This document shows positions 61,325 through 61,832 of a DNA stretch of 64,000 bases, one piece after another. The translations under genes and the position numbers were made by a program. Each line of letters begins with the position of its first letter. Positions within the stretch are counted from its first letter, which is position 1. Source of the stretch: Mariniblastus sp. (GTDB taxonomy: Bacteria; Planctomycetota; Planctomycetia; Pirellulales; Pirellulaceae); assembly GCA_029251085.1 (NCBI GenBank), contig JAQXDZ010000119.1:1-64000 (forward strand), given 5' to 3'. The notes below the pieces were generated by a model. The model had not been told where the DNA came from and made no database searches. It saw only the letters and a list, made by a program, of their open reading frames with translations.

Positions 61325-61358
61325 AAAAAAGCGTTCGCCATCAAATGGCGAACGCTTT
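61325..61358 (-). terminator. Terminator of the HMA selenoprotein gene
   Basis: A 14-bp perfect stem (61328-61341 with 61345-61358, AAAGCGTTCGCCAT), three-base loop, and on the - strand a run of Ts (61324-61330). Its upstream edge is 24 bases after the TAA at 61383. Confidence 0.9.
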
Positions 61359-61382
61359 CAATTAATCCAAATTGGAAAACGC

Positions 61383-61832
61383 TTACTCTGCGTTTGACCA
61401 ATCCTTGATGTGCTTGTTCCCATCATCTACCAATTTGTTGAGCGTTGCAGCAACGTCCAAATCTTTTGGGGCCGAGAATGTACATGAACGAGATGCAGCA
61501 TCACAGTCAATGTCTGAAACACCAGAAACACCAGCTAGAGCGCCTTTCACGGACGCAACACAGCCACCTCAGGTCATGCCTGGAAGCTTAAGAGAAACAG
61601 TTTGTGTTGCAGAAGCGTCATCGGTAGCAGCACCACTAGTTGCCGCTGGCTTATCCTCTGTGTCGGCAGGCTTAGCCGCTGGGGTGTCACCGGTGCTAGG
61701 TGCTGCTACTTCAGCAGCTCCGCCACCCTCGGCTCCAGTCGCTTTCGCAGGCTCTGTTTTGGTTTCACCCTTATCACAGCCAACGGAAACGATGAGCATC
61801 GCCATCGCCATAAAAGTCAAAATTGCACGCAT
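61383..61832 (-). CDS. Exported HMA-domain protein with in-frame TGA in the metal motif: probable selenoprotein
   Basis: The frame starts at ATG 61832 with a lipoprotein-like signal (MRAILTFMAMAMLIVSVGC; Cys19) and an Ala/Pro/Glu/Lys-rich linker. A heavy-metal-associated (HMA, MerP/Atx1-like) domain follows. Its motif GMTCxxC appears as GMT-TGA-GGC: TGA is codon 88 (61569-61571), Cys91 follows. The frame then stays open for 60 sense codons in HMA register (GGCVASVKGALAGVSGVSDI, CTFSAPKDLDVAATL) to TAA at 61383, with a strong terminator 24 bases beyond. Position 88 is therefore probably selenocysteine (149 residues in total). Selenocysteine-containing MerP-like proteins have been reported in marine metagenomes (from memory). 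The alternatives are a nonsense mutation or sequencing error. No sel genes lie in the window. Confidence 0.75.
61533..61571 (-). promoter_or_regulatory. Putative bacterial SECIS hairpin directly after the TGA
   Basis: On the - strand, TGA (61571-61569) is followed by 12 bases. Next come GCG, bulged T, CC (61556-61551), a six-base loop GTGAAA (61550-61545) and GG-CGC (61544-61540). An outer stem GGCT/AGCT (61565-61562 with 61536-61533) encloses it. A bulged U two base pairs below a loop starting GU is the same plan as the E. coli fdhF SECIS recognised by SelB. It lies inside the coding region, as bacterial SECIS must. Confidence 0.6.

Follow-up and report, generated by a model that had tools for sequence, protein, structure and literature searches.

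An in-frame TGA at codon 88 of a gene in a 64,000-nt stretch of the Mariniblastus sp. genome (contig JAQXDZ010000119.1; hereafter, the window) very probably encodes selenocysteine (Sec) at the first position of the CxxC motif of an HMA domain. The selenoprotein reading of this gene is strongly supported by comparison with relatives, in which Sec coding appears to be conserved. We think it reasonably probable that the product is an exported, probably lipid-anchored HMA selenoprotein that would hold a soft metal via Sec and Cys; the metal, the geometry of the site and the physiological role of the protein are what we infer from these comparisons.

Results

The window gene

The predicted selenoprotein gene (61383..61832, minus strand) encodes 149 residues, comprising a leader, a low-complexity linker and an HMA domain with Sec. 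The preliminary description had placed a TGA at the first Cys of CxxC in an HMA frame that continues beyond it, and had noted a strong terminator shortly after the frame's end; each of these observations was borne out. Codon 88 (Sec88; 61569..61571, minus strand) is a TGA in the context ...LKLPGMT-U-GGC..., i.e., position 1 of U-G-G-C, and the second ligand position of UxxC is a TGT codon (Cys91; 61560..61562, minus strand). The minus-strand frame beginning at 61832 remains open past codon 88 to a TAA at 61383, and its product matches Pfam HMA (PF00403) at 43.3 bits against a cut-off of 24.8 when TGA is read as Cys. A terminator-like hairpin (61327..61359, minus strand), with a 15-bp stem and then a T run, is located 23 nt past the TAA and folds at -22.9 kcal/mol (z -6.9); a simple terminator scan did not list it. 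The leader (61776..61832, minus strand), read by eye as MRAILTFMAMAMLIVSVGC, ends in a lipobox-like SVGC (Cys19), suggesting that the protein is probably exported and, judging from the SVGC as read by eye, probably lipid-anchored. N-termini resembling this leader occur in 22 of 38 Sec sequences of the family by a crude text pattern, two false matches excluded. The neighbors of the gene look like ftsY, rpsO and pnp, names that we assigned from their sequences.

Selenocysteine machinery of the source genome

The preliminary description had pointed to selA, selB, selD and selC (tRNA-Sec) as the genes to look for, and all four are present in the window genome. The tRNA-Sec scored 67.4 bits, over its profile cut-off, and ARAGORN agreed, giving a tca anticodon; selB (367 bits), selA (593 bits) and selD (255 bits) likewise exceeded their profile cut-offs. 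A paralogue of the window protein in the same genome (G000:C18) has a TGA at the identical place. A further selenoprotein of this genome is formate dehydrogenase alpha (L153; G000:C155:6356-8368), whose single in-frame TGA lies in the context CAAT-U-HAPTVAGL, which we take to be the usual Sec site of that enzyme.

We also considered whether TGA might be a general sense codon, which is unlikely, as 9 of the 38 Sec sequences themselves terminate at an in-frame TGA (L094, L100, L108, L109, L110, L111, L115, L120 and L142) and TGA therefore serves as both Sec and stop. Chance or assembly error is an unlikely source of the TGA, and assembly error was rejected because other genomes, one of them a complete chromosome, have the same codon.

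Distribution of the family and its association with selB

The same gene occurs in a second genome (G285) with 81% identity, the TGA at the same codon and the same neighbors. Comparison of these two orthologues gave dN/dS values of 0.20 before the TGA and 0.40 after it, and a pair of paralogues gave 0.07 and 0.10, respectively; the frame downstream of the TGA is under purifying selection. Planctomycetes bacterium K23_9, whose genome is complete (CP036526), also has a gene of the family.

Matches at E<=0.001 were obtained in 63 of 296 sampled genomes of the order; among the matches listed, the majority had no stop. Fourteen genomes had a match with TGA at the first CxxC position, and selB (E<=1e-70) was present in all 14 of them versus 74 of the 296 genomes overall (hypergeometric p 1.4e-9, with genomes counted regardless of relatedness). 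G070, whose TGA lies inside a weak match lacking the HMA motif, was dropped from these counts, and G267, which has selB and a different HMA design (UPGGC), was kept out of the 14. When 397 genomes of the class were searched (E<=1e-12) with a profile that includes some of the sequences it then recovers, 25 matches in 23 genomes were obtained. Twenty-two of these have one TGA and three have no stop (those of G220 and G261 and one G825 copy); inspection of all 22 showed the TGA to be the first position of UxxC in each. Among the 12 further TGA genomes selB was found in 11, the exception being G864 (610 contigs), so that over both samples together the Sec form is accompanied by selB in 25 of 26 genomes.

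The preliminary description had proposed aligning relatives to compare Cys with TGA, and had counted truncation of relatives at this codon against its reading. In the alignment, the column is TGA in the 22 of 25 class matches noted above and Cys in G220 and G261, which have the Cys form only (TGC) and no selB; relatives are not cut off at the TGA, as both the codon and the downstream frame are kept. In the Cys copy of G825 the codon at the Sec column is TGT. G825 holds both a Sec copy, with UGGC, the hairpin and the loop-5 His described below, and a Cys copy with CPIC and neither feature (L166 and L167). In a sample of 392 genomes of the phylum (E<=1e-9), TGA was found only in the window genome and G606, and six other genomes had matches lacking a stop. 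Taken as sequence comparisons, these searches indicate that Sec at the first CxxC position probably recurs in dozens of relatives across the planctomycetes.

A hairpin after the TGA

Twelve relatives share a stem at positions 15-21/25-31, counted from the TGA, in which 96.4% of cells are paired and two pairs are changed on both sides. The covariation score of this alignment was 0.240, versus 0.082 in shuffled alignments (0 of 500 shuffles as high), and slid versions of the alignment scored 0.000-0.130; two of the five measures of the test were reached by shuffles, namely both-side pair changes (29 of 500) and pair types (69 of 500). The published model of the bacterial SECIS, as given in the cited part of its source, calls for a loop of 3-9 nt with G in its first two places, a spacing of 16-37 nt and a folding energy of <=-7.5 kcal/mol (PMC13188914). 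The hairpin loop of the relatives starts with G-U, 18 nt past the TGA, and fits that description (PMC13188914). When the stretch after the codon was folded alone, 16 Sec forms gave -7.5 to -12.4 kcal/mol, with L041 folding differently, versus -1.6 and -3.6 kcal/mol in two Cys forms and -0.4 in the G825 Cys copy. Thirteen of the 16 Sec genes and neither of two Cys genes passed the published model; resampled copies often pass too, at 4 to 25 of 40 per Sec gene (n=16), and the model's general separation is poor. A codon-resampling fold test on 36 genes, 32 of which had been collected by a pattern that fixes parts of the hairpin, gave a mean z of -1.81.

A shifted form of the hairpin is found in the window gene and in its orthologue and the paralogues. 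In the window this SECIS-like element (GCG-U-CC/GUGAAA/GGCGC; 61540..61556, minus strand) has a bulged U and an apical loop starting with GU, and its geometry fits the published model. It reaches -7.5 kcal/mol within 30 nt, while the isolated stem, at -6.8 kcal/mol, misses the -7.5 limit; 25 of 40 resampled copies pass the model that this stem fails. The window hairpin was no better than chance (z -0.36) or than codon resampling (z -0.52), and the case for Sec in this gene rests on the family and not on its own hairpin.

We also scanned a contig collection with a pattern in which TG could be followed by any third base (TGN). The scan returned 54 stretches plus one viral stretch, of which 33 belong to the HMA family, 30 being assigned by text pattern and three (L094, L111 and L128) by eye. 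The codon was TGA in 33 of 33 family genes versus 4 of 22 other matches. Thirty-one of the family genes are from planctomycetes (Candidatus Kuenenia counted) and two are labeled bacterium only; 12 of the 33 are apparently on contigs already met in the order-sample search, and L096 and L114 share one domain. In five relatives (L162 and L167-L170) Ala replaces Ser in the stem, and the hairpin was kept in both that were folded (L162 and L167). It seems likely that conservation of the Ser-Val-Arg following the motif is due in part to constraints on the RNA.

Fold and candidate metal ligands

The model of the window domain has a mean pLDDT of 93.8, with strands at residues 4-10, 34-39 and 44-50 and helices at 17-28 and 55-64. 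Its best solved match was MerP (1osd; Z 10.7, rmsd 1.7, 71 residues aligned, 32% identity), and copper ATPase domains and a copper-binding protein were within 1 Z of that match. As modeled, the domain has a ferredoxin-like HMA fold resembling those of MerP and CopZ.

To compare candidate ligands, we used 35 distinct Sec sequences, excluding the duplicates L082 and L114 as well as L111, in which the frame closes shortly beyond the motif; 31 of the 35 had been collected by a pattern fixing Ser-Val-Arg and parts of the hairpin, which leaves the counts for the third Cys and the His unaffected. The second Cys of the motif is present in all 35. A third Cys, located where strand 3 begins (Cys117, residue 45 of the domain model; 61482..61484, minus strand), is present in 31 and absent in four. 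In the loop after helix 2 (loop 5), an Asn is present in 35 of 35, and the residue two positions on (His141; 61410..61412, minus strand) is His in 32 and Lys in three. The three Cys copies keep the third Cys and have Lys, Lys and Ser at the His position; the loop-5 His therefore goes together with Sec (32/35 Sec sequences versus 0/3 Cys copies). In HMA structures the metal loop is at one end of the sheet, and that end is also where strand 3 begins and loop 5 is located. From these conserved positions we infer a site made up of Sec, Cys and His, to which the third Cys may also contribute.

Domain architecture and gene context

Sec occurs in several other HMA architectures. A YceI domain is fused ahead of the Sec-HMA domain in L041:1498-2568 (G176; YceI, 107 bits) and in L109:1584-2528, where YceI scored 101 bits and HMA 22.8, just below its cut-off. 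The paralogue found in L051:1489-2247 (G000:C18) and in L057 carries a Lys-rich extension N-terminal to its Sec-HMA domain; the ~180-residue extension of L051 (G000:C18) had no significant Pfam match. In the sister genome G267, a second HMA design (L058:2054-2380; G267:C4) has one TGA in GMT-U-PGG-C (UxxxC) and is located near a pnp-like gene, as is the window gene; its Cys counterpart, with CPSGC, is found in G228 (L046). A further HMA frame of the same genome, exported and with a lipobox-like leader (L152, G267:C1:28400-32600; match at G267:C1:30432-30608, minus strand), has two in-frame TGA codons in GMV-U-GAS-U, with a spacing of UxxxU and not UxxU, and is possibly a double-Sec metal protein. 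The candidate Sec-HMA designs seen in the lineage comprise UxxxC, double-Sec UxxxU (sister genome), the YceI fusions and the N-terminally extended paralogue.

Analysis of 35 family loci of unequal length, in which neighbor clusters were named by eye, showed no conserved operon and no recurring metal-resistance neighbor. Antisense shadows aside, the clusters recurring in at least three loci were sulfatase-like (6), response-regulator-like (3), pilin-like with a prepilin leader (3) and one unnamed (3). No mer genes were recognized beside the window gene or in clusters shared by at least three of the 35 loci, and no selenium-metabolism gene was recognized among the recurring neighbors. Since no recurring neighbor suggests a metal pathway, a partner cannot be named from the neighbors.

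Discussion

In the explanation we favor, the UGA would be read as Sec by SelB and tRNA-Sec, directed by the hairpin just past the codon. In the mature HMA domain, the selenolate of Sec and the thiolate of Cys in U-x-x-C would then together bind a soft metal ion, for which Hg(II) and Cu(I) are the likeliest candidates; the loop-5 His and perhaps the third Cys would complete or tune the site. Affinity would be higher with Sec, which would remain deprotonated, and in the envelope the protein would trap or relay the metal.

Of the alternatives, a redox role fares best, and we consider it unlikely. In such a protein the Sec and Cys of UxxC would form a selenenylsulfide, and the HMA fold would serve the envelope in exchanging thiols and selenols or in removing peroxide, and not in holding metal. 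The envelope is oxidizing, and the third Cys, present in 31 of 35 Sec sequences, could be a resolving thiol; moreover, most selenoproteins of known function are oxidoreductases, many of them with a UxxC redox motif, according to the cited part of a survey (PMC2398784). However, the fold is that of HMA domains and is not thioredoxin-like, and both the M-x-U-x-x-C loop and the profile relatives point to metal chaperones and metal pumps. Sec as a metal ligand is the likeliest reading.

It is also conceivable, though highly improbable in our estimation, that the protein serves selenium economy in the envelope, binding or scavenging selenium or a selenide-bound metal and taking no part in metal traffic. 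The near-constant company of selB (25 of 26 genomes with the Sec form) would fit such a role, but any Sec protein requires a genome with selB; the ligand loop, furthermore, is typical for metals, and the recurring neighbors in the 35 loci included no recognized gene of selenium metabolism. Finally, a true stop at the TGA, leaving an 87-residue exported product and a downstream HMA part that is a decaying remnant or a misreading, draws on the weak hairpin of the window gene and the somewhat lower constraint after the codon (dN/dS 0.40 versus 0.20), but was rejected as scarcely credible given purifying selection past the TGA, the same codon in 22 of 25 class matches, the selB association, the hairpin covariation in relatives and a terminator-like hairpin that sits after the TAA.

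We suggest, with less assurance than for the window protein itself, a planctomycete-wide family of envelope selenoproteins with a Sec-Cys-His metal site, perhaps including the third Cys, and with Sec in several exported HMA designs. If the Sec-Cys-His reading is true, these proteins would provide a natural selenolate trap or relay for metal in the cell envelope. Outside the cytosol, Sec in a metal-chaperone fold would give a naturally occurring example of selenium that is probably a metal ligand and not catalytic. A 2026 review, in its cited part, raises selenium as a metal ligand for SaoB, SaoC and UXX-star and calls their roles open (PMC13188914). Ordinary annotation is expected to truncate such genes at the TGA. 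The presence of the gene in the complete K23_9 genome (CP036526) makes the metal, its affinity and the role of Sec versus Cys testable, and the family supplies natural Sec/Cys pairs, even inside one genome (G825).

HMA-type selenoproteins are already known, and the table of the same review has NF041115 (UxxU), an E1-E2 ATPase with UxxC and a putative mercuric transport protein (PMC13188914). When the window domain alone was compared with NCBIfam cut-offs it fell below every one, and on that basis the window protein appears to be a variant apart from the known HMA selenoproteins; of 36 members scanned, 34 matched MerP and 34 the MerTP fusion at E<=0.001. The UxxU metal-binding (seleno)protein NF041115 is likewise HMA-similar, with Sec in its motif, and is described in the cited part of its source as a predicted bacterial selenoprotein (PMC13188914). 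It has two Sec. The window protein reaches 34.3 bits (cut-off, 95) and differs in having a single Sec together with a leader, a third Cys and the loop-5 His. The MerT/CopZ fusion-like selenoprotein NF045683 is, by its name, also a heavy-metal-transport selenoprotein with a CopZ-like part; the window protein reaches 27.8 bits against a cut-off of 375 and has no MerT part. The cation-transporting E1-E2 ATPase selenoprotein shares Sec in the UxxC of a metal-handling protein (PMC13188914 and PMC2398784, in the parts cited), but is a membrane pump, whereas the window protein is small, stand-alone and exported.

The periplasmic mercury-binding protein MerP (TIGR02052) is, like the window protein, an exported single HMA domain, and it is both the nearest solved fold and the best NCBIfam score; the window protein differs in scoring 39 bits against a cut-off of 92.55, in having no mer genes recognized beside it and in being probably lipid-anchored. 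The preliminary description had mentioned MerP-like selenoproteins from marine metagenomes, in agreement with the GOS survey, in which Table 2 has two MerP selenoproteins in one sample and does not give their motif (PMC2398784). Our literature search, in which subscription journals were thinly covered, found no publication on the HMA-Sec family and did not meet the Sec-Cys-His ligand set, with or without the third Cys; members may be listed among the GOS MerP sequences and in the S9 Table of PMC4807772, which by its description holds selenoprotein candidates of two planctomycetes.

The copper chaperones share their fold and MxCxxC loop with the window protein, which, unlike CopZ/Atx1, is predicted to be exported and to carry Sec. 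CopZ and Atx1 are cytosolic and all-Cys. His61 of the cyanobacterial Atx1 presumably sits in loop 5, the loop of the His that accompanies Sec here. That residue takes part, according to the cited part of its source, in a hydrogen-bond network at a zinc-bridged dimer interface (PMC3763678). Human CCS, another copper chaperone, has been engineered to carry Sec, which is reported to be used there as a copper ligand and followed by Se-edge X-ray absorption (as cited in PMC6235853). Those variants were made in the laboratory, whereas the Sec of the window protein would be one encoded by nature.
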